Shown here piece by piece: positions 24,690-59,500 of a stretch of DNA of 64,000 nucleotides. The position numbers and the translations under genes were made by a program. This DNA comes from Dermatophagoides farinae (lineage: Eukaryota; Arthropoda; Arachnida; Sarcoptiformes; Pyroglyphidae): the NCBI RefSeq assembly GCF_024713945.1, contig NC_134686.1:62001-126000 (forward strand), in the 5' to 3' direction. Position 1 is the stretch's first letter; each line of letters opens with the position of its first letter. Under the pieces are notes generated by a model. It was not told the origin of the DNA, searched no databases, and saw only the letters and a program-made list of their open reading frames with translations.

Positions 24690-25096
24690 TCGGTTGCGGG
24701 TTAAAATAGCCAAATTGAAAATATCCAAGGCAGAAAATATCCAAGAATGAAAATAGCCAAAACTGAAAACAGACAAGACTGAAAACAGCCAAGACTGAAA
24801 ATAGCCAAAGCAGAAAATGTTTAGTTTAGTTTAAGTTTAGTTTAGGTTAGGTTAGGTTAGGTTAGGTTAGGTTAGGTTAGGTTAGGTGGTCTCGGTTCAT
24901 TAGCAAAGGAAAAAAATTGAGGTTTGGATAAAACTATTGTATTGACAAACAGTTTATTTCCGATTTGACAATTTTAAGCATTGGCTGTTTTCAGTCTTGT
25001 CTGTTTTCAGTTTTGGCTGTTTTCAGTCTTGGATATTTTCAGTCTTGGATATTTTCTGCCTTGGATATTTTCAATTTGGCTATTTTAACCCACAAT
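24690..25096. repeat. Foldback element with telomere-like core
   Basis: Two long imperfect inverted arms (about 24690-24820 and 24976-25096). The outer 49 bp of each arm (24697-24745 and 25043-25091) are nearly identical as reverse complements, beginning GGGTTAAAATAGCC. Inside, both arms are built from a degenerate 16-17 bp tandem unit of the form CTGAAAACAGCCAAGA. Similarity continues weakly outside to TTTGTTTT sequences at 24680 and 25105. The central 155 bp contain an array of TTAGG. Translations across the arms give repetitive peptides in all frames and are not genes. Confidence 0.8.
24842..24886 (+). repeat. Interstitial telomeric repeat, (TTAGG)9
   Basis: Nine perfect tandem copies of TTAGG, the pentamer used at telomeres of most arthropods, preceded by degenerate units TTTAG/TTTAAG from about 24820. 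It sits in the loop of the foldback element and is flanked by unique-looking genomic sequence, so it is internal rather than a chromosome end. Confidence 0.9.
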
Positions 25097-46092: not shown

Positions 46093-49006
46093 TCATTCCA
46101 TTATCCATTCAAATTGATAATGTATACGATCATGTGATGATGAATCCTGATTATAAATTGGCAATTTAGTTTCAACGGTCAAAATATTCGTTTGTTCATC
46201 ATAATTAAAGCGTATGATTCGTGGATCTGATACATGTCCATTCAATTTAAAGGAAGTTGGCAGCTTTGGCACACCAAGAATATTGATGAAATTTATGTTT
46301 TGTGTTGTTTGATATCCAAGCCATTGTGATTGGATAGTTAATGTATTCTGAATTAAAAACAAATCAGTTCAGAAAAACTTTCAATATATTCACTATATAC
46401 TCACATTTACAGCATCAAAATTGTAAAAATTGTAATGTCCAGTTTTATCTGGATTCAAACTATCACCGGAATCCCAATACAATGATCCTTTGGCAAATGA
46501 AGTTTGATTGTCTAGAGCTACAATCAGTAAGAAATCTTTTGTTTTCATCAATTCCGTATTGTCGTGTGGTTCTTGTGTCGGTATGATTGAACCACCACGA
46601 ACGAAAACATAATCAATATCGTCATATGAATCATTCATTGTTATGTATTGTCCTTGGCTTTCGAATGATACTTTCCTATTGTACCATGTGCCTTTTGGTA
46701 GATAGATTTTATGCTGAAATGAAAAACAACAGTTTGTAGTGCACTCAGTAATTATTTGTAAAATATCATGAAACATCTCAAAACAAACCTGAGTCTGGTT
46801 AGGGTATAGAATCGGAGCTATCAACACTGAATCGCCCCACATGAATTGTGTTTCAATTTCATATGTATGTTCATCATGTGGAAATTCGAAAAACATTGGA
46901 CGCAAAACAGTTCCGCCATTCTTGTGAACATGATAGAACAGTGTGTATAAGTGAGCCAGAAATCTATATCGATATTGAAGTGAACTTCGTGCTGCTCTAA
47001 TAACACTTTCACCCAAAGCTGCTGGATCTTGATCGATTGCATGGATGTCATTATGATTACGAGCAAACGAATAAAAAGCACCAAGTTGATACCATCGAAT
47101 ACAAAGTTCTTCAGCCGTATTGCCGCCGAATCCACAAATATCAGCTCCTACCATTGGTATGCCAAACATGTTGAAATTCAATATAGATGGTATAGTCCAT
47201 CTCATTGAAGACCAATCGGAGAGAATATCACCGTTCCAATGATAAGCCCAATGGCCATGTCCAGGTGCTGTAGCGCGAGATATAATAAATGGTCGTTTAT
47301 TCAATTTAGTCAGTGCCCTGAAATAGATTCGGTTAGATTAATCTTTTTTTTGTAACACATTTGAATCCAACTTACGCATTCGTAGCCATCGCCATCGATA
47401 AGGAATACAAATTGTGCAAATTATAATGTAGTTGATCATTATAATGACGAGCAGTCATGCAAAGGGTTTTATGTCTTAAAGTCAGACTATCATCAGTCAT
47501 TCCGGGTACGTATTGTGGATTTTCAATTTCTGATTCAGGACAACCATGCTCTTCACCATTATAAAAATTCGATGGCTCATTCATATCGAGCCAAGCGCCA
47601 TCGAATGCGATTGTTTTATGGTACTCAGCAAACATGTCCATCCAATATTCGGTTGCATTAGGATGGCTGAAATCAGGCCATACTGTAGATTTTCCATTCC
47701 AGACTTTTCCACGAAATATTTTATTGGATGAATTTTTGACGAATACATCAAGTTCAACACCGCTATCGAATGGCTTATAGGAACCAGCAGGTTCTCCACT
47801 TGAAATACCACAGTCAAACATGGGTATAAATTTCTGTCCATTCGGATGCAATACGTTATTTATGAAATCTGGCAATTCTTTGAATCGTTTGTGGTCATAC
47901 GTAAAATCATTATTCGAATTAAACGCATCAATATCGGTCCATTGAACGTCCATAGGAATTCCTACCACTCTGTTTCGTGTATAAGTCGCATTTAAATTTG
48001 TAAAATTATTGTATCCATATCGGCATTGTTGGTAGCCCAATGACCAAAACGGTGGCATAGCTGGTAAACCGATCAAATTTTGATATTGCGAAATAACATC
48101 CTCCGGTTTAGGACCAAAAAAGACGAAAAAGTCTAAAATTCCACCGATTGTACGAAATGTGATGGCAGGTGACGGTTGAGTAATAATGTCCATTGCGTTG
48201 CTATTGAACAAGAACACACCACTTGCAGATTTTTTCGGACTTTCATCTTCAACTGTCAGATAAAATGGATGGTTTCCATACAAAGCCTTGTCAGTTACTG
48301 GATATTGATCTCTTGTCCATTGAGTATAACGTTTCCAGTTTGTATTTTTACGGAATGGTGCACGATGTTCACCAAGGCCATAAATATATTTGGAGGGCAG
48401 TCTTGATGTTACATGAATCAATTGATCTGAGTATACCATGTAAGCAAGATTAATATCAAAAATTGATTGATTGGTTTCACGTCTTCGAACGATAAGATGA
48501 GAGCCGTCCAGTTCCACTGAATACAATCGAGAATTCGATGATGATGATGATGTTGTAGAAGGTAGATTTAATTTTGGTATCGGCACTTCATATCTTTTTT
48601 TGTTTGCGTCGATAAATTTGAGTCGAATTACTTTATCGTTCAATTCATGGATTTCGATATTTATGTTTTCAATATCACGAGCGAATCCAGATGATCGATT
48701 ACGTTTTAATTGAATGAGATTTTTTGAATGTTTTTCAATTTTGTAGCCAATGTAATTTTCACCATAATAGCAATAAGGTACATTCAGATTGGGAAGAGCT
48801 TTGCTTGACAAATTCTTCAAATCATTACCGGTTGTCTTCCAACAACATCCACGTTGTTCGCAAACATTTTTCGATATTGGAGGATCAGGATTACAATCAA
48901 TACGATCTTCATTTCGGATCGTGCTACATTTCAAGGAATCAGAAGTTACAAATGTAACCAGTGATATGATTAAAGAAAAGAGAAAAAATAATTTTGTCAA
49001 TGCCAT
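46093..49006 (-). CDS. Secreted alpha-glucosidase, GH31 with trefoil domain (copy A)
   Basis: Hydrolyses terminal alpha-glucosyl residues (maltase/acid alpha-glucosidase/sucrase-isomaltase family). Four exons: 49006-47376, 47317-46789, 46713-46405, 46347-46093; 907 aa. The start at 49006 gives a good signal peptide (MALTKLFFLFSLIISLVTFVTS); an in-frame Met further up at 49111 lies within the spacer repeat and is less likely. Then a P-type trefoil (Cys pattern ending GCCW, at about 27-60), N-terminal beta-sandwich, and the GH31 barrel: nucleophile D474 in WLDMNEPSNF, acid/base D574 in HWNGD, 100 residues apart as in the family. The C-terminal beta domains are complete. No membrane anchor. Its paralogue copy B lies directly upstream on the same strand with identical intron phases (2, 0, 0). 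Confidence 0.94.
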
Positions 49007-49065
49007 GGTTTGGATGAATTTTATGGGCATCAAAACTTGAGTTTTTATGTGTAAAAATTTAAAAA

Positions 49066-49805
49066 TTTTTGTTGCCAATTTAAAACGAAATTCAATCGTT
49101 TTTAAGTTCAAGTAGTTTGAGAGGCACTTGAAAAAATTAAGATAATTTTTTGGGGGTTTTTATTATTAAATTAAATAAAATGTACAGATTATATTATACA
49201 AGGTTAAGCAAAAAAACAATTTTAAAAACAAAAGTGATTATAATAGATCCCAATAAAGTTGATGGTGAATTTTTGTTGCCAATTTAAAACGAAATTCAAT
49301 CGTTTTTAAGTTCAAGTAGTTTGAGAGGCACTTGAAAAAATTAAGATAATTTTTTTGGGTTTTTATTATTAAATTAAATAAAATGTACAGGTTATATTAT
49401 ACAAGATTAAGCAAAAAAAACAATTTTAAACAGACAAAAGTGATTATAATAGATCCCAATAAAGTTGATGGTAAATTTTTGTTTGATCATTGTATAACGA
49501 AATTCAATCGTTTTTAAGTTCAAGTAGTTTGAGAGGCACTTGAAAAAATTAAGATAATTTTTTTGGGTTTTTAGTACAAACATAACTATTTAGTATGAGC
49601 TTATGAGCATGCGGAAAAACTTTTGAATGCCGCTGAACATTATCAGAAGTAGAATTCCAAAGAAACGCAAATAGCTCAGCACACGTTGTACAGGTTATAT
49701 TATACAAGATTAAGCAAAAAAAACAATTTTAAACAGACAAAAGTGTTTTATAATAGATCCCAATAAAGTTGATGGTGAATTTGTTGTTTGATCATTGTAT
49801 AATGG
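49066..49805. repeat. Tandem spacer repeat, about 204-bp unit, between the two glucosidase genes
   Basis: Copy 1 is 49066-49269, copy 2 49270-49475, copy 3 from 49476 to about 49798. Copies share the blocks CGAAATTCAATCG, GTTTGAGAGGCACTTG, TTATATTATACAAG and ATAGATCCCAATAAAG, with few differences. Copy 3 is interrupted at 49574-49687 by about 110 bp of unrelated sequence that replaces the AT-rich middle. The junction of copies 2 and 3, and the end of copy 3, carry GTTTGATCATTGTATAA in place of GTTGCCAATTTAAAAC. The right end overlaps the last exon of copy B and the left end begins 60 bp upstream of the copy A start codon. Confidence 0.9.
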
Positions 49806-52800
49806 AAGGCGTATCCTATAGGATCTATTTGATAGATCGATTATCATGTTCAGTCGCAATATTGAACCACAAAGTGGTTTGCTCAATGTATGATGGGCTT
49901 GTTCATATTTAAAGTTAAATCCATCTTTTTTTCCATCAATCGAGATAAATTGCGGCTGTTGATAGAATCCAAGGATGATGATTTCCTCGATAATCAGATT
50001 GGTTCGGTAGCCAAGATGTTTGGATTCAATGTTCAAATTTTGCTATAAAAAAATAGTCAATTATTCATTATTATAGTCAGAATGTCAAATATTAGAAATT
50101 ACATTTTTCACTGTAAAATCATAAAGATTAAATTGTCCAAGTTGTTCGGTATCAATGTAATCACCAGCATCCAAATACAATTGTCCAGTAGCAGCCGATA
50201 ATTCATTTTCGAGTATAACTAACAAACTGAAAGGTTCTTGTCTCGTTGCTTCCGATGTTATATTTGGTTTCTGTATCGGAATAATTGATCCAGAACGATA
50301 ATAAACATTGGGATATGTGAATAAAGCGGGCATCGACATGAATTGACCTTTGCCTTCAATACGTTGATAATCACCGACAAAAAACCATGTGCCTTTGGGA
50401 AAATATACATGGATCTATAATAATGAAAATTGTATCAATAAATAAAGTAATAACTAGAATTCATTTGATGATCGAACCTTTTTTTGATTAGGTGATAATG
50501 CCGGTGCAATCATCATTGATTTACCCCACATAAATTGCGAATCAATCTTGTATGCATTTTCATCGTCGGAGAATTCAAAAAACAATGGACGCAAAACTGT
50601 GCCTCCATTTTTGTGTACATTATAGAACAATGTGTACAGATAGGATAAATGAGCATATCGAATACGAAGAGCATTTTTGGCTGCTTGTACTACATGCGGT
50701 CCTAATGCTGCTGGATCTTGATCAATACCATCGTCTGTATTATGGTTACGTGCAAACGTATAGAATGCACCCAATTGATGCCATCGAGCGCAAAGTTCTT
50801 CGGTTGTGTTTCCATTGAAGCCACATATATCAGCGCCTACCATTGGAATACCAAATAGATTGAAATTCAATATAGATGATATTGACCAATTCATTGAAGA
50901 CCAATCAGAAACAATGTCACCAGTCCAATGATAAGCCCAATGGCCATGACCAGGCGCTGTTGCGCGAGATATAATAAATGGACGCTTTTTCAACGTATTT
51001 TTCAATGCACTTGATGAGAATAAATTAGATTATTCTATCGAAATTAACAAATAATAAACTTACTCGTTTGTGACGATAGCTTCTTGTAATCCATACAAAT
51101 TATGGAGATTATAATGAAGTTGACCATTGTAATGTCGAGCTGTCATACACAATGTTTTACGTTTCAATGTCAAACTCTCGTCGACCATGCCTGGTGTGTA
51201 TGGAGGTGTTTCGAAATCATTTTTGGGACAACCAATATTCTGACCGTCTAGAAAATTCGATGGTTCATTCATATCGATCCAGGCACCATCGAATGAAATC
51301 GTTTTATGATATTGAGAAAGCATCCTTGTCCAATATAATGTTGCATTTGGATGAAAGAAATCTGGCCATACTGTTGACTTTCGATTCCAAACTTTTCCGT
51401 AGAAAAGGTGATCTGACGAATTTTTGATGAACACATTCATTTGAAGGCCGACATCGAATGGTTGATATGAATTCGGAGCCTCGCCAGCTGATATTCCAGG
51501 ATCAAACATCGGTATGAATTTCATTCCATTTTTGTGTAAAACTTTGTTTATAAAATCGGGCAATCCTTTGAAGTTTTTTTCATCATAAGTAAAATCATTA
51601 TTGGAATCCATTATATCAATATCGGTCCATTGAACATCCATTGGAATTTCAACGTCACGATTTCTAGTGAATGTTGCCAACAGATTGCTCATGTTTCGGT
51701 AACCAAATCGTGAAAGGTGAAAACCCAAAGACCAAAACGGTGGCATCGACGGTAAACCAATCAGATTATGATATTGGCACACAACGTCTTCTGCTTTAGG
51801 ACCGAAAAATAGGAAAAAATCTAGTATGCCGCCTATTGTACGGAAAGTAATGGCCGGTTGAGGTTGAGTTATAATATCCATAGCATTGCTGTTGAATAAG
51901 AAAACACCACTTGCTGGTCGTTTGTCGTTGTATTCTTCAACTGTCATATAGAATGGATGGGATCCATATAATGCCATATCAGGCAAAGGATATTGATCTC
52001 GATTAAACATTGTATATCGTTTCCAGTTAGTAGGTTTTCGAAATGGTTCTCGATGTTCACCGAGACCATACACAAAATCTGAAGGCAATCGTGTTGTCAT
52101 CTGTATGAATTGGTCTGAATATATCAACAATGCTAAATTTACATGGAATACAGCTTGACCATTTTCACGGCGACGAATGACTAGATTGGAATCATGAAGT
52201 TCAATAGAATATAGTTTTGAATGTGACACAGATGTAACGGGTACGTTCAATTTAGGCACAGGAACTTCGAAACGAGGATTTTCCAGATCACTAAATTTGA
52301 TTCGAATCATTTGATCAGTGAGTTGATAAATATCAATTTTGACATTTTGAATATCACGAGGAAAACCAGAAGGGTGAACTCGTTTCAAGTGAACATAAGT
52401 GTGAGTTTCTTCTGATCGATTCTCGATAATTTTGTAGCCAACATGATCAACGGGATCAAAGTAACAAAATGGAATATCAACATTAGGTAAAGCTTTTGTT
52501 GTTCGTAATGTGTAATTTGAATATTTCTCTTTGATTGGATTCCAGCAACACCCACGTTTTTCACATATTTCTTTTGAGATTGGTGGATCCGGATTACAAT
52601 CGATTCGATCTTCAGGCCTGACCAATTGGCATTTTTCAAAGATTTTCATTTGTGCAATATATGCTTCATCATCCAAGGTTTTTATCGAATCGTTTTCAAC
52701 ATTTTGATTATAACGAACTATGGCCACTATTAAAAATATCAATGACAATAACGAAAAAAGTGCGACAGACGATAGAAATAAAATGTTGAATTTTTTACGG

Positions 52801-52970
52801 ACACGTTGAAATTCTAGTCGTTGTTCGTGTATAAAACTTAGCCATGATCGTTGATGTGGGTAATATAATGTATCACGATTGAATAATTCAACATTGTCAA
52901 AATCCATAATGGATTCAAATTCAGGATCATTTTTCAGTCGTTTGTGATTGAATTGAGAATGCGACATCAT
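49710..52970 (-). CDS. Membrane-anchored alpha-glucosidase, GH31 with trefoil domain (copy B)
   Basis: Same enzyme family as copy A. Four exons: 52970-51064, 51009-50478, 50414-50103, 50042-49710; 1027 aa. Starts MMSHSQFNHK; the first 80 residues are a cytosolic tail, then one hydrophobic segment at about 66-87 (ILFLSSVALFSLLSLIFLIVA) not preceded by a signal-peptide pattern, so a type II anchor as in sucrase-isomaltase. Trefoil with Cys pattern ending GCCW follows at about 115-150, then the GH31 barrel: nucleophile D566 in WIDMNEPSNF and acid/base D667 in HWTGD. The last 25-30 residues (from about LYNDQTTNSP on) differ from copy A and are encoded inside the spacer repeat. An acceptor-like ATATCTAG just before the start suggests a 5' UTR intron. 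Confidence 0.94.
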
Positions 52971-53448
52971 GTGTAGTTTATTTTGAAATCTAGATATATG
53001 AGAAAAATAAATAAAACGAATGTAAATCAATGCACAATGCACTATAATTTCTAATTAAAAATAAATCGCCATCACAATTGTGATGAGCAAAATGAGAATC
53101 CATCCATTGATGCCCAGTATCATTTCATTTAATCAACGAATGAGATTATTGTCTAGGTTACGATTGCAACCAAAAAAATCTTGTTGGGTGTTGTCAGTTT
53201 GTCATCATTGAAAATAAAAGATTTATTTACCGTTGTTTGAGCAAGAAAAAGATGCAAATCAAAAAAATCTAGAAGCTAAGTAATAAAAATGTCAATCAAT
53301 TAGAAAACAATAAATATGGGTGTTACTGATAATGATGATGATGTGTACGACGAAAACAGCAACAATGACAAAAACGGTAAATATTTGGGTTTCATCATTT
53401 TATTTCTCAGACGACGCAATTATTATCATCAGCTGTGTGAATTGATAA
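52971..53448. other. Intergenic, upstream of glucosidase B
   Basis: Probable promoter and 5' UTR of copy B. No gene or clear regulatory motif seen. Confidence 0.5.
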
Positions 53449-53465
53449 CACAGAAAAGAAAGTAG

Positions 53466-53645
53466 GGTTAGTACTAACCAAAAAAGGTTAGTACTAACCC
53501 TAAAAACTAACCCAAGAAGGTTAGTACTAACCTTCTTGGGTTAGTACTAACCATTTTGGGTTAGTGCTAACCTGCAATGCTAACCTTCTTGGGTTAGTGC
53601 TAACCTTTTTGGGTTAGCAATCACCCGAATTGGTTAGCGCTATCC
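53466..53645. repeat. Left array of 14-bp palindromes
   Basis: Perfect GGTTAGTACTAACC at 53466, 53486, 53519 and 53539; the variant GGTTAGTGCTAACC at 53559 and 53592; more degenerate copies at 53612 and 53632 (GGTTAGCGCTATCC). Spacers are short and often related to CTTCTTGG or AAAAAA. The copies at 53506-53545 sit inside a perfect 40-bp palindrome. Confidence 0.93.
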
Positions 53646-53896
53646 ATTATTTTAAAATTAAAATTTAATTTTTTTTGTATTATAAGATAAATTATCAATA
53701 ATCATTAATTAATAAATTAATATTTATAGTGAAAAAATAAATCAGAAAAATAATTTTCGACCAAAACAACAGAGTAATCGATATATAATGAAATCAATTT
53801 ATAAGCAAAAATTTATAACTAAATTATTCAGATTTATTATTATTTAATGAATATTATATCAAATACCGAAATGTAATTATCAAAATTTTAAAAAAG

Positions 53897-54293
53897 ATGG
53901 TCATCATAAATCATTTTGGAGTGCGAAACAACGATGATGATATCGATAATAATCAAGATGGTCATCCAATTCAACAATCAATGGCTACAAAAATGGCCAT
54001 CATGAATCGTCATCATCCTGCTACACTGATTGATTCACCAAATATGATGATAATGTCGCCACAATTACAGCATCATAATTTTCAACACCATCAACAACAA
54101 CAACGGAATATTGTACATGTGCTGTAATCAAACATCCATGAATGCAAATATTCCACCATCATCATATCATCAAGCAGCAGCAACAGCTGCATCGCCACAA
54201 CAAATACCAATTTCAATACCAAATTCACAATCATTTGATGCTGCTACTAATGAAATTCGTGATGATTCGCATACATTTAATTTATACATGTAA
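53897..54293 (+). pseudogene. Broken Gln/His/Ser-rich reading frame
   Basis: A 76-codon frame (53897-54127, ending after a QHHQQQQ run) is followed, in another frame shifted by one base, by a Pro/Ala/Gln-rich stretch (54141-54293; IPPSSYHQAAATAASPQQIP and a non-repetitive end SFDAATNEIRDDSHTF). The two halves have the same style and would be continuous but for a single frameshift near 54100-54130. It may be a decayed or captured gene fragment inside the TIR element, or an assembly indel. An AATAAA lies at about 54437. Family not recognised. Confidence 0.3.
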
Positions 54294-54925
54294 TAACATT
54301 ATGTGGACATAACATGGTTATAATCGTATCGAATATTATGTTCGCAGCTATGATTGAGGAATGGACACTATTGAAATATTATAAAGCTTTATTGATCAAG
54401 TATAGTTTATTTTTATAATCTGAATATATGTTTTTCAATAAAAATAAAAAATGAATAACAACAAAAATTTTGAAACAGTATTGAAATATAATACAAACAC
54501 AGGATGTCAAAGAAAACGTTGATCGTGCGATTTTGAAATTGATTTTTGTATGGGGTAAACTGGACATAAACATCTTCATGAAATAGAAAATAATAAACCG
54601 AATTCGGAAAGTTGATGTCAGGTTAAACTCAAATGAAATTCTTAACGATAATTTAATAATCCAATTTACCAATTTGTGATAAAGGTCAATTATTACGTTC
54701 CATTGAAATTACATTATAATTTTTTTTCATCAATTATGCTGCTGATATGATAATATCTATCAAATCATGAGTTGATTTTTTATTCATTTTTCATGCTAAG
54801 TCTACGGCAAAAACAATGAATTCATTTTGCCGCCAAAAATTTCCATGTCCAACTAATGGGCAACTGCGCATAGTCATATAGATGTAGTGCGCTAACTATT
54901 TTTAATGCAAATACTGCGCGCTTCT

Positions 54926-56203
54926 ATTCCCCATACAAATTTGAATTTGATCGTTGGAAAAATCGAACATTAAAATTCAACGGTCGTCGAAGACGGTTGT
55001 CCTCACTCAACTTTGCGCTATTTTTCGTGATCATGTCGTGATATTTTTTTCATTTTTTTTCTATTTTAATCGTAGATTTTTGCACTAAATTTTGGAACAA
55101 AGAATTTAATCGATTCAAGATTATCGTTGTTCAAACTTATTGTGGTCTAAGATCAAAAATTGGCCCCGAAATCGATGAAGATCGTTTGGTTCGGTCATCA
55201 TGTAATCATGATACAAGTTGGCGAAAAAATCCCATTTTCGATGACTTTCAAATGTATTTATGACATTTTGTTTTTCATCAAATTGTATTCAATCAAATCC
55301 TTTTCAAGTTTTCTTTTTCAGAGTCCATTATACTTGATGTATGATAATTGGAATTCGGATTAATATATGAAAACATGGTCAATGAGGTAATTTACATTTT
55401 GCCTTAGATTGAAAATGCTAACAATTTTCCTTGTCTTTTGAAGCATGAAATTTTCATTGATGATCAATGATCATTAGACATATAATTGGTGCCGTCTTTA
55501 GAAAAACGATCATGGTAATGATGCCGAACATTACAAATTTATTGGTGGATATCTGGTCACTAACATGGTACAATGTCCAATGAAACATCATGTTCACCAT
55601 CAGGTAACTTTGGAATTTCGCTATCAATCAATGATTCTAACATTTACATTTCTCAAAGGCCTGCATTGGATTGAATTGTCGGAACAACTTATTCGGTAAG
55701 TCGACATATTCATTCTTCATATCTAATAAAGATTGGTCTATCTTTTTTTATCAGGTTCGTTCCTGAAATTTTACAATCATCAAATTGAAATTCGATTGAT
55801 GATTATGTTCGAGATCAATTCGGCGGTTCCATTTTTCATCAGCATCCAATTCAAGAATAGTTTGACCATGTTCAACACATGATATCAGGTTAGGCTAGGG
55901 TTAGATTAGGCTTAGGAACACGGTCTGAGCTATTTCCTATTGAATTGGATGCTGATTGAATCTTTGGAATCAATGAAGCGATCGAAAACATGATTATAAG
56001 TTGAAGATTCATGGGATGGAACACATACTTGAAAATGATCATGGTAAGCAAATGAATAGATTAATTGAACAACTAATATTTATCTTTACTTAGGATTGCC
56101 GGCGAACAATTGGGAAATTGAATCTCGAACCACGGATAGAATTTGGACATTGTCTTGGAACATGGACCGCGAACATTGGATCTATTTCAAACGGGACAAT
56201 TAA
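54926..56203 (+). other. Exon-like segments of an unrecognised gene or gene remnant
   Basis: Several short open stretches have protein-like composition and are bordered by splice signals of the type used elsewhere in the window. 55076-55253, after a pyrimidine-rich acceptor, reads FCTKFWNKEFNRFKIIVVQ and later IGPEIDEDRLVRSS. 55502-55695, after CTTTAG, reads HYKFIGGYLVTNMVQ and ends at GTAAGT; the next acceptor is at 55754. A last pair joins across a 49-50 nt intron (GTAAGC at 56044 to TTTACTTAG at 56093) and ends WEIESRTTDRIWTLSW...RDN with a stop at 56201-56203. I could not connect all parts in one frame, so this may be a decayed gene or a multi-exon gene with unusual joints. No family recognised. 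Confidence 0.3.
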
Positions 56204-56447
56204 CGTTGTATGGCGCAATTGGGATGTGGAATATGGATGTATTTTATTATTTATTTATAATATTTTTATAAATTAATATATCAATAAAATCAATTAAATT
56301 TCAATATATCGATTAAATTTTAATGGGGGGCAAATGTAATAAAAGGGGGTAAAAATTGCTGCAACAATCGCGTGATGAACGACACAATCGATGATTTCGA
56401 TATATCGTTGCAACAATCGGCTGGCAAAATTGCTCATAACCCAAAAA

Positions 56448-56509
56448 GGTTAGTACTAACCCTAAATGGTTATTTTTTGTATAATAACCAAAAAAGGTTA
56501 GTACTAACC
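56448..56509. repeat. Right pair of 14-bp palindromes
   Basis: Perfect GGTTAGTACTAACC at 56448-56461 and 56496-56509, separated by 34 bp that include an imperfect palindrome around TTATTTTTTGTATAATAA. Matches the left array of the element. Confidence 0.93.
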
Positions 56510-56529
56510 TTTTTACTTTCTTTTCTGTG

Positions 56530-59500
56530 AATGTATATGCTCATTCAATGGCATATATATATATAGTTTATAACCATACCATTACTTTCGATAAGAGTAG
56601 TGGTTCATATTTTTGTAAGACTTGAATTCTATTCTGATTCCATTCCATGATGATTATAAATTGGTAAATGTAGATTCTTGCTTGTAAATTTATGATAATC
56701 AGAATGATATGTTTTTACGTTTTTCACAGATTTATCCTGTTATTGGTTGGATTACGAACATCATAATGAATATATCTTCACATTGATCATTTATCAACAG
56801 CAATCCAACGACAAACAGTATGATTAAATGTTGATCAATTGACAATTTCCTTTAGTCGAAAAAAAAGACAAAGACACAAAATGAATAACAACATTAAATT
56901 CTCGCATAGTCTTTTTTCTGAATCATCAGCCAGAAAACGACAATAATTATAGTGAATGATGAAAAAAGGTTGTTGAATAGTGCTGATTTAGAATGAATGA
57001 AAACCGGGAAATTAACCATGGCCACTTGTGGCACACAATAGAGCTGTCACCAATATACGAAATAAAAAAAAATCACAATCACAATAGACGATTGACTGGC
57101 ATACACAATGGAGATTAAACAAAATAATACCCACTGGGAAAGGGTGTTTTATTTGGTGTCAAGTATAAAAATTTGTTAACACAAGATTGAAGAGATATTT
57201 AATACTGACAATCAATTTTTCTTCCAAATGAAATAAACTTACATGATGATGATGATGATTTTTTGAATGTAACTCGATGGCAACAAAAAGTTTGATCATG
57301 ACAATGATGTTGATTTTCTTTCGAAATAAATTAATCCTCTATTGATTGAAAATATAAAGATCGTCATGTATATTTGTTTGCTGATAAGACACATACAAAC
57401 ATCGAGACAAAAAAACAAGTGGCACTCTAAATGTTTGATTTTTAGGGGTCAAATTGTATGTGGTTCAATTTTTTTCAACATTCATCATGATAATCAGTAG
57501 TAATCAGTATAATGTTGTTGAATAAATGGCCAATCAGCCAAAGCTTAAGAATTCGAATTAATTTCATTATTATTTTATCGTTGTTGAGAGGTCCTCGCTC
57601 TCACTCTTCTTCTTTTTTAGTTGGCCAATTGAATGATGATGATTGATAATCAATTATCATTTATTTACCGATTTAGGTTTAGATTCCATTGATTTTGTAT
57701 TCTATCTGTTTTGTGTGTCTATTAGATCTAATCATCATTATCATTATCAAATGACGAGTGGAATCAAAAGGTTTAGCTAATAGTGTTATCAAAAAAAAAG
57801 AAAATGATGTCCATTGACAATTTATGTAACGATAAAAACGAACTTCCTGGATTTCGAATTGTTTTTTATTTCTTTTAACCTAATCTTTCAAAGTGTTGAT
57901 AATTTTGATGATGATTATAAAGACATAATGATGGTTTTTTGAGGTCGACATTTACGATGCAAGAGAGAAAGAGAGAGAAAAAATCTCATAAAAATGTGGG
58001 AATTTTTCGTTTTATTTTTTCTTAAATCCGATCTTTTTTAAATCGAAAAATTTTGAAAACAATCAAAAATGATGATGACAATAGTTCAGGATGGTAAAGT
58101 TCACAGTTTTTTTCTGTTCGCTGATCGTGATTTGGCCATGAGAGAACAAGAAAGAGAGAGAGAGAGAACTAGAAACCAAGATTGAGAAAAAATCATTAAA
58201 ATAATCATCGAATGGTTTTTCTTTTTTCATCCGATTGATTTTCCATTTTCTTTTTAGACGTATTCGATGAACAAAGTAGAAAAATGTAAATATTATTTTT
58301 GTCTTTCACAAATTTTTTTTCTGTGTTATTTTTTTGGTGAGTGGGATACGAATGAGTTTCTATCGATGGATGATTTCATCATAGACATGATTATCATGTC
58401 TATGATTAACTAGATTAACATACTTTTAATGATGAAAAAATTGGATCAAACAGATTAGATCTTGTTGTCGTTTTATTCTCTGATAATTGTTGATGGAAAT
58501 AAATCTGTAGGCTCGAAAAAAAAACAATCGACATCTTTGTTCCTTATCTGCAATGATTGGATTTGTAACCAATTTTTAAATCTAATAAAAATAGCAACAA
58601 CAACTATAGTTTCTATAGAAAAAATTAGGGTGGATCGTCGATTCATTTTAGTGATTTCTAATTTAACTTTTTTTTCATTATGATTACGATTATGATGATG
58701 ATGAGAAAATTCACAAATTCTATTCGTACACACACACAAAAGATTTATTTATCAGCAAAATCTGTTTTCCACCCACCGTGAAAATATGGTTAAAATGTCT
58801 AGTCTAGTTTTCTAGTTTTTATGTGTTAAGACTGACAATATACTTGTCATAGAATGAACTATACTAAATATTGGCTTACCTCATTTACTTATTTTAATTC
58901 AATCGCGCCCTATCATCAATTATGAATTGACTAATTCCATTCAGTAGTAATCGTCGTGGTGAAATTACTTAAATGAAATACAATCATTATCCATTCACAT
59001 ACCCATCGTGATAATGCAAACACATACTGACATACTGACATGACATAATGGTTTGGTAAACATAAACTCAATTTGTCTTTTTTCCAACCATAATTCAAAC
59101 AACACTTGTTTGTCTATTCAATTTGTTTTTCATTTTTTTGAATGATAACTTGGAGAATTCAACTAAGTTATCCTTCAAAAACTGTTATTATTTGTCATGG
59201 TCTGTGTATCAGCATTGAAAATGACAACCAAAACAATATGACCAGAGAAAGAATGGATAGGAAATGGCTAAATTCACATTCAAACACAAACTCCTTTTGC
59301 AAACGAAAAACTTGACGTTATTATCATTAGGATCGACAATGATGATTATAATATAAAATTAAAGCGACTTTCCATCCTTTTTAAAATGGCGATGCTAATG
59401 TGTCAAAAATGAAAAATAGAATGGCTCCACTCACTTCTTGTTGATGATTAAGATCTCAATGCATATCAAGGATTATGGTTAGTGAGATAAAAAAAAGAAG

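Follow-up and report, generated by a model that had tools for sequence, protein, structure and literature searches.

Alternative palindromic ends and two target-site duplication lengths in a non-autonomous, CMC-like transposon family of Dermatophagoides farinae

The window analyzed is a 64-kb stretch of the Dermatophagoides farinae genome (C10:62001-126000; contigs are numbered C1 onward), and the genome searched comprises 62.4 Mb in 22 contigs. Two minus-strand frames at 47375-49111 and 51063-53042 match glycosyl hydrolase 31 and trefoil domains (Pfam), and a 204-bp tandem repeat of 2.5 copies (49063-49573) overlaps the first of these frames (47372-49111) at its 5′ end. A 3,081-bp element occupies 53449-56529; the 51063-53042 frame has its 5′ end at 53042, which places the element about 0.4 kb upstream of it. 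The element begins on the plus strand with a 16-bp terminal inverted repeat (TIR), CACAGAAAAGAAAGTA, at 53449-53464, which is a perfect match to the inverted right end on the minus strand at 56514-56529, as a preliminary description of this DNA had reported. End-to-end comparison shows that the identity ends at base 17. The element is bordered by a 2-bp AA on the left (53447-53448) and on the right (56530-56531) in the flanks GAATTGATAA and AATGTATATG. Rfam has no match between 53000 and 57000 of the window.

Copies of the palindrome GGTTAGTACTAACC lie just inside both TIRs. The left array (53466-53605) consists of six sites, exact at 53466, 53486, 53519, and 53539 and with one mismatch at 53559 and 53592, and the spacings are 20, 33, 20, 20, and 33. 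The right pair (56448-56509) is exact at 56448 and 56496 with a spacing of 48, making the arrays asymmetric. A search of the window allowing up to two mismatches returned eight sites, every one within the element (six exact, two with one mismatch), compared to a chance expectation of 0.02; none of 100 dinucleotide shuffles reached eight. The earlier count of at least six palindromes on the left and two on the right is therefore borne out. A de novo scan of the window copy for perfect palindromes of at least 12 bp found six in the two 280-bp ends taken together and two in the 2,481-bp interior.

The exact 14-mer GGTTAGTACTAACC occurs at 28 sites genome-wide, and its reversed control at none. 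The TIR alone (CACAGAAAARAAAGTR) has 55 matches compared to 6 for the reversed control, and a TIR search allowing one mismatch gave 51 compared to 18. The reversed control is not zero, so unpaired TIR matches may be due to chance, and the TIR alone is a weaker family marker than the palindrome. Combining 14-mer and TIR matches identified six both-ended copies of this end type, called P: the window copy, C1:50138-53089, C3:2374362-2378798, C3:3217414-3221520, C4:3816622-3820508, and the 51-bp C5:2854983-2855033. The search for the 16-bp end plus palindrome proposed in the preliminary description thus shows that the element is not single-copy. The left TIR has one substitution in C3:2374362 and in the 51-bp copy. 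Damaged or partial P copies are present at C2:3659581-3660875, where the left end is damaged and a target-site duplication (TSD) is not clear, and at C3:3927990. The window copy is 98.7% identical to the C1 copy over the first 938 aligned columns and 94.6 to 96.4% identical in the remaining long matches. Its left interior (53851-54675) matches C3:2120457-2121606 at 91 to 93%, and the latter looks like a remnant copy of the element. The 51-bp copy is composed of the left TIR (with T for C at its first base), a G, a single palindrome, TTTT, and the right TIR, and is flanked by TA. It looks like the remnant of a deletion that ran from the first left palindrome to the last right one, resembling a solo LTR.

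TSDs were read and tallied by eye from printed flanks. All six P copies have a 2-bp duplication (AA, TT, TT, AT, TA, TA). The tally was made without single-ended or damaged places (C2:3659581-3660875, C3:3927990, and unpaired TIR matches). The C3:2374362-2378798 copy has a second, inner right TIR; its TT duplication fits only the outer one, which was used in the tally, and the inner one gives no match. Empty sites were taken from paralogous flank repeats within the one genome, for one copy each of P and of the G and T types described below. The joined flanks of the P copy C3:3217414-3221520 fit a nearby empty paralog gap-free at the junction when 2 bp (AT) are removed, and the sole gap in the alignment is 2 bases in a T run approximately 26 bp from the junction. 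The AA flanks of the window copy match, and a search for its own empty site found none. TIR-bounded copies, matching 2-bp flanks in six of six, and the sister-copy empty site confirm that the window element is a transposon with ends at 53449 and 56529. The transposon deduced in the preliminary description is thereby established from dispersed both-ended copies, TSDs, and paralogous empty sites in the same genome, and its ends coincide with the copy boundaries. The terminal palindromes bring to mind a Helitron or Helentron. Helitrons are not known to make TSDs. Subterminal palindromes are described as possible in Helitrons by PMC3422177, and the same account gives them no TIR; the perfect 16-bp TIRs and the 2- or 3-bp TSDs defined by empty sites do not support this assignment, which is extremely improbable.

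Three further end types were found. G-type copies, found by searching with the window element, have nearly the same TIR (CACAGAAAARAAAGTR) and the palindrome GCGAGTACTCGC, an exact 12-mer at 43 genome sites with none for its reversed control. T-type copies, which the same search returned, also have nearly the same TIR (CACAGAAAARAAAGTR) and carry the palindrome GGAGACTAGTCTCC. The fourth type has a divergent TIR (CACAGAGAGGAAAGTG / CACAGAGCCAAAAGTA) and the palindrome GCAGGGTACCCTGC at four sites (control, 0); it is known in full from one element, C8:3644953-3648389, and has only about 300 to 360 bp in common with the other types at 75 to 77% identity. The G-copy TSDs are TA, TA, AT, and TT, and a fifth G copy, C4:1716404-1726316, is without one; the single fourth-type element has TA. 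The T-copy TSDs are 3 bp (TTA, AAT, ACA, GAT, TTT). A 2-bp TSD fits 11 of the 12 non-T copies (P, G, and fourth type) and a 3-bp TSD fits all five T copies; conversely, one non-T copy of the 12 matches at 3 bp and one T copy of the five at 2 bp. The difference in 3-bp matches (5/5 T compared to 1/12 others) has a Fisher p of 0.001, on small counts of related copies that may not be independent. A rule that GTAC-centered palindromes go with 2-bp and CTAG-centered palindromes with 3-bp TSDs was dropped because the T ends and the single full fourth-type element also hold AATT-centered palindromes.

Empty sites also fix the TSD length of one G and one T copy. The site of the G copy C4:3742330 is empty in five paralogous loci with 2 bp (TA) removed. 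This copy (C4:3742330-3746747) sits at the center of a 16-bp palindrome, ATCCTATATATAGGAT, in a repeat family with several empty copies. The joined flanks of the T copy C3:5492585 gave 12 matches: two are its own flanks, eight span the junction, and two cover one side only. Alignment to one of the eight, a 53-base piece, is gap-free with 3 bp (ACA) removed and scores 85, with 47 of 50 columns identical. Removal of 0, 1, 2, 4, or 5 bp gave scores of 76, 78, 80, 78, and 74, so 3 bp is best.

The P, G, and T types combine nearly the same 16-bp TIR and an approximately 2-kb interior that is about 90% identical with different palindromes. In the window copy, the shared interior lies at 54675-56420 (element positions 1227-2972) and is about 90% identical to copies with other end types; between-type identity is 89.5 to 92.7% in an alignment of six P, G, and T copies (1,764-2,576 aligned bases). 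Between-type blastn homology ends 74 to 202 bp short of the right end and 375 to 3,751 bases inside the left end in eight of the nine elements compared; a 1,830-bp T copy in the opposite orientation was left out of the breakpoint comparison. Beyond the breakpoints there is no between-type blastn match of at least 70 bp at 1e-8, notwithstanding nearly the same terminal 16 bp. Judged from these alignments, similar interiors with different palindromic ends appear to have been passed between end modules. The palindromes could instead have diverged within one lineage with no interior exchange, and the palindrome does lie close to the TIR in most ends read, whatever their type. That explanation sits poorly with interiors that remain about 90% identical next to outer ends with no blastn match at this threshold, and is rather doubtful.

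The coding content of the family was analyzed for a transposase. No Pfam match above the curated cut-off was obtained for sets of six and eight proteins from the copies and related loci or for ten further frames of the window copy; the sole exception among the proteins scanned was a Transposase_21 frame that belongs to another element. No transposase, intact or broken, was recognized in the selected frames of the copies read, and the Plavaka transposase (PF18759) has no match in the genome at E 0.5. Across six copies, none of the 12 windows of the shared interior shows codon periodicity at its variable sites (smallest p = 0.226), and coding by this interior was rejected. A non-autonomous copy need not carry a transposase, and the profile search agrees with the preliminary description of a possibly non-autonomous element with no known transposase. 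The suggestion of captured gene pieces fared less well: other copies do hold fragments that have relatives at other places in the genome, but no captured host gene was shown and the interior of six copies is without coding constraint. A 118-aa frame of G copies has weak relatives (34-55%) at C3:24877, C7:4920738, and C9:1339180, and the C9 relative sits in a 279-aa open frame with a coiled-coil look by eye.

Two candidates for the autonomous partner were rejected. Transposase_21 (PF02992) matches four places in the genome, three above cut-off, and three of the four belong to an element whose ends differ from those of the P/G/T family. C1:3952044 and C5:1078006 hold an identical, intact 926-aa Transposase_21 frame, and the frame on C9 is broken; the fourth place, below cut-off, has no TIR of the P/G/T kind within its 3.3 kb. 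The element that encloses the C1 frame ends in 19-bp inverted repeats, TACCCTGGTAGTGCGAAAA, whose termini allow two readings: TRC-like CCC with TA duplicated, or TACCC with TGC duplicated. These ends are unlike those of the P/G/T family, and tblastn with the 926-aa protein and a C7 fragment (E up to 1) returned none of the P, G, T, or fourth-type loci compared. The second candidate was the 9.9-kb G copy C4:1716404-1726316, in which no autonomous gene of its own was recognized; its length comes from two frames inside it, one Gypsy-like (pol) and one Tc1-like, both recognized by eye. The Transposase_21 element itself (C1:3950300-3956800) is possibly a recently active CACTA relative, and its 112-bp direct repeats contain a near-palindrome, ACGTCTGAAAGACTTCTTTCAGACGT.

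Since no transposase was recognized, the superfamily was assigned from the ends and the TSD. The transposase of the CMC (CACTA-Mirage-Chapaev) and CACTA-EnSpm group is of the DDE type with C(2)C and H(3-4)H motifs. The element is best placed, with a probability of about 0.7, with the CMC (CACTA-like) kind of cut-and-paste DNA transposon, as a non-autonomous form. It could instead be a non-autonomous member of another superfamily, for which Academ, ISL2EU/PHIS, and a superfamily not yet described are candidates, and have CAC..GTG ends and 2- to 3-bp TSDs by coincidence. Such an origin is compatible with the failure to recover a transposase and with the 0-, 2-, or 3-bp TSDs ascribed to Harbinger-related DNA transposons (PMC12730594), but it is unlikely, as CMC better fits the CA..TG ends and the asymmetric subterminal arrays. 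The features that point to CMC are the CAC..GTG termini (both ends read CACAGAAAARAAAGTR, and some copies differ by a single substitution), the TSDs of 2 or 3 bp in the copies with empty sites for P, G, and T, and the subterminal repeat arrays. The CMCT clade is summarized as having mostly CA..TG termini and 2- to 5-bp TSDs (PMC12730594), TSDs of either 2 or 3 bp are reported for CACTA elements (PMC4298943; PMC8978399), and the CMC supergroup is described as spanning the 2-bp TA TSD of CNEST and the 3-bp TSD of CNIRT6 (PMC12810828). The mite TIR begins with CACAG rather than the classical CACTA. The element is filed as CMC-like and not as proven CACTA because the ends, TSD, and arrays fit, the transposase is unrecognized, and the literal CACTA motif is missing. 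Of the earlier term 'unclassified transposon', the noun holds and the adjective gives way to this provisional placement.

The closest known systems share some features with the mite family and differ from it in others. CACTA/EnSpm elements, as outlined for soybean Tgmt* (PMC2613891), share short TIRs, asymmetric arrays, subfamily-divergent subterminal motifs, and a small TSD with the mite family. Tgmt* is described as having 12 stem-loops on one side and 2 on the other, and the same source states that subterminal repeats vary between CACTA subfamilies and that TNPA recognizes those of Spm/En. The mite copies differ from that description in starting with CACAG, in having arrays of perfect palindromes and no recognized transposase, and in combining similar interiors with either of two TSD lengths. 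The Cryptococcus elements CNEST and CNIRT6, as presented in PMC12810828, also have CAC-initial TIRs (CACGG; CACTG) with a 2-bp TA or 3-bp TSD, but these are full elements with a transposase in distinct CMC clades (CNEST is about 7.2 kb with 33-bp TIRs), whereas in the mite family the TIR and interior are nearly the same in copies of either TSD length. Among animal CACTA elements, those of the TRC type, represented in PMC4298943 by Spongebob, share the 2-bp TSD and an animal host, but they start with CCC, as the Transposase_21 element of the same mite genome can be read to do, and the P/G/T family starts with CACAG. The ATon elements of Aedes are portrayed in PMC3422177 as non-autonomous, with TIRs, subterminal palindromic motifs in some, and an autonomous partner not found; ATon-I and -II differ in being 112 and 144 bp and inserting at AT, and palindrome arrays of this kind were not found in that account. 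In the open-licence literature, mostly titles and abstract openings, no match was recognized for the mite family or for the switch in end type and TSD length. The family is non-autonomous and resides in a compact genome of 62 Mb.

Across the main end types, the 16-bp TIR and interior are nearly constant and the palindrome and TSD length change together, and the parts played by TIR, palindrome, and transposase can thereby be separated. TSD length reflects the stagger of the transposase cut, and the 2- and 3-bp TSDs that follow end type suggest that at least two transposases serve them. A tentative model, with somewhat less than even odds, is that one passenger block is moved by at least two machineries through a common 16-bp TIR and alternative palindrome-coded end modules, each with its own DNA-binding protein and TSD length. 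In the favored CMC-like reading, a CMC-type transposase made elsewhere would act in trans and cut at the CACAG..CTGTG termini of the 16-bp TIR. A sequence-specific protein, either the DNA-binding part of the transposase or a TNPA-like partner, would bind the palindromes as a dimer and pair the ends, and each palindrome sequence would represent a separate binding specificity. Interior DNA would move between end modules by recombination or by template switching in break repair, and the 51-bp copy would arise by a deletion joining the first left and last right palindromes. Template switching during gap repair is proposed for metazoan TIR elements (PMC8277862). Alternatively, a single transposase with a flexible cut stagger might move every end type, with TSD length following end architecture. 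Nearly the same 16-bp TIR in the three main types and the 2-bp or 3-bp TSDs reported for CACTA elements (PMC4298943; PMC8978399) are in line with one such enzyme, but TSD length segregates with palindrome type (3-bp match in 5/5 T and 1/12 others), and the flexible stagger is judged improbable. If the model of at least two machineries is correct, a change of ends lets the parasitic cargo outlast the disappearance of any single transposase. How fast CACTA subterminal repeats co-evolve with the proteins that read them is left as an open question in PMC2613891.

Elsewhere in the window, an interstitial array of 13.2 TTAGG copies lies at 24821-24887. Arrays of a 16-bp unit stand on either side of it in opposite orientation, at 24703-24808 and 24981-25086, and form a large inverted repeat from 24703 to 25086 around the TTAGG copies, which are telomere repeats of the arthropod type.
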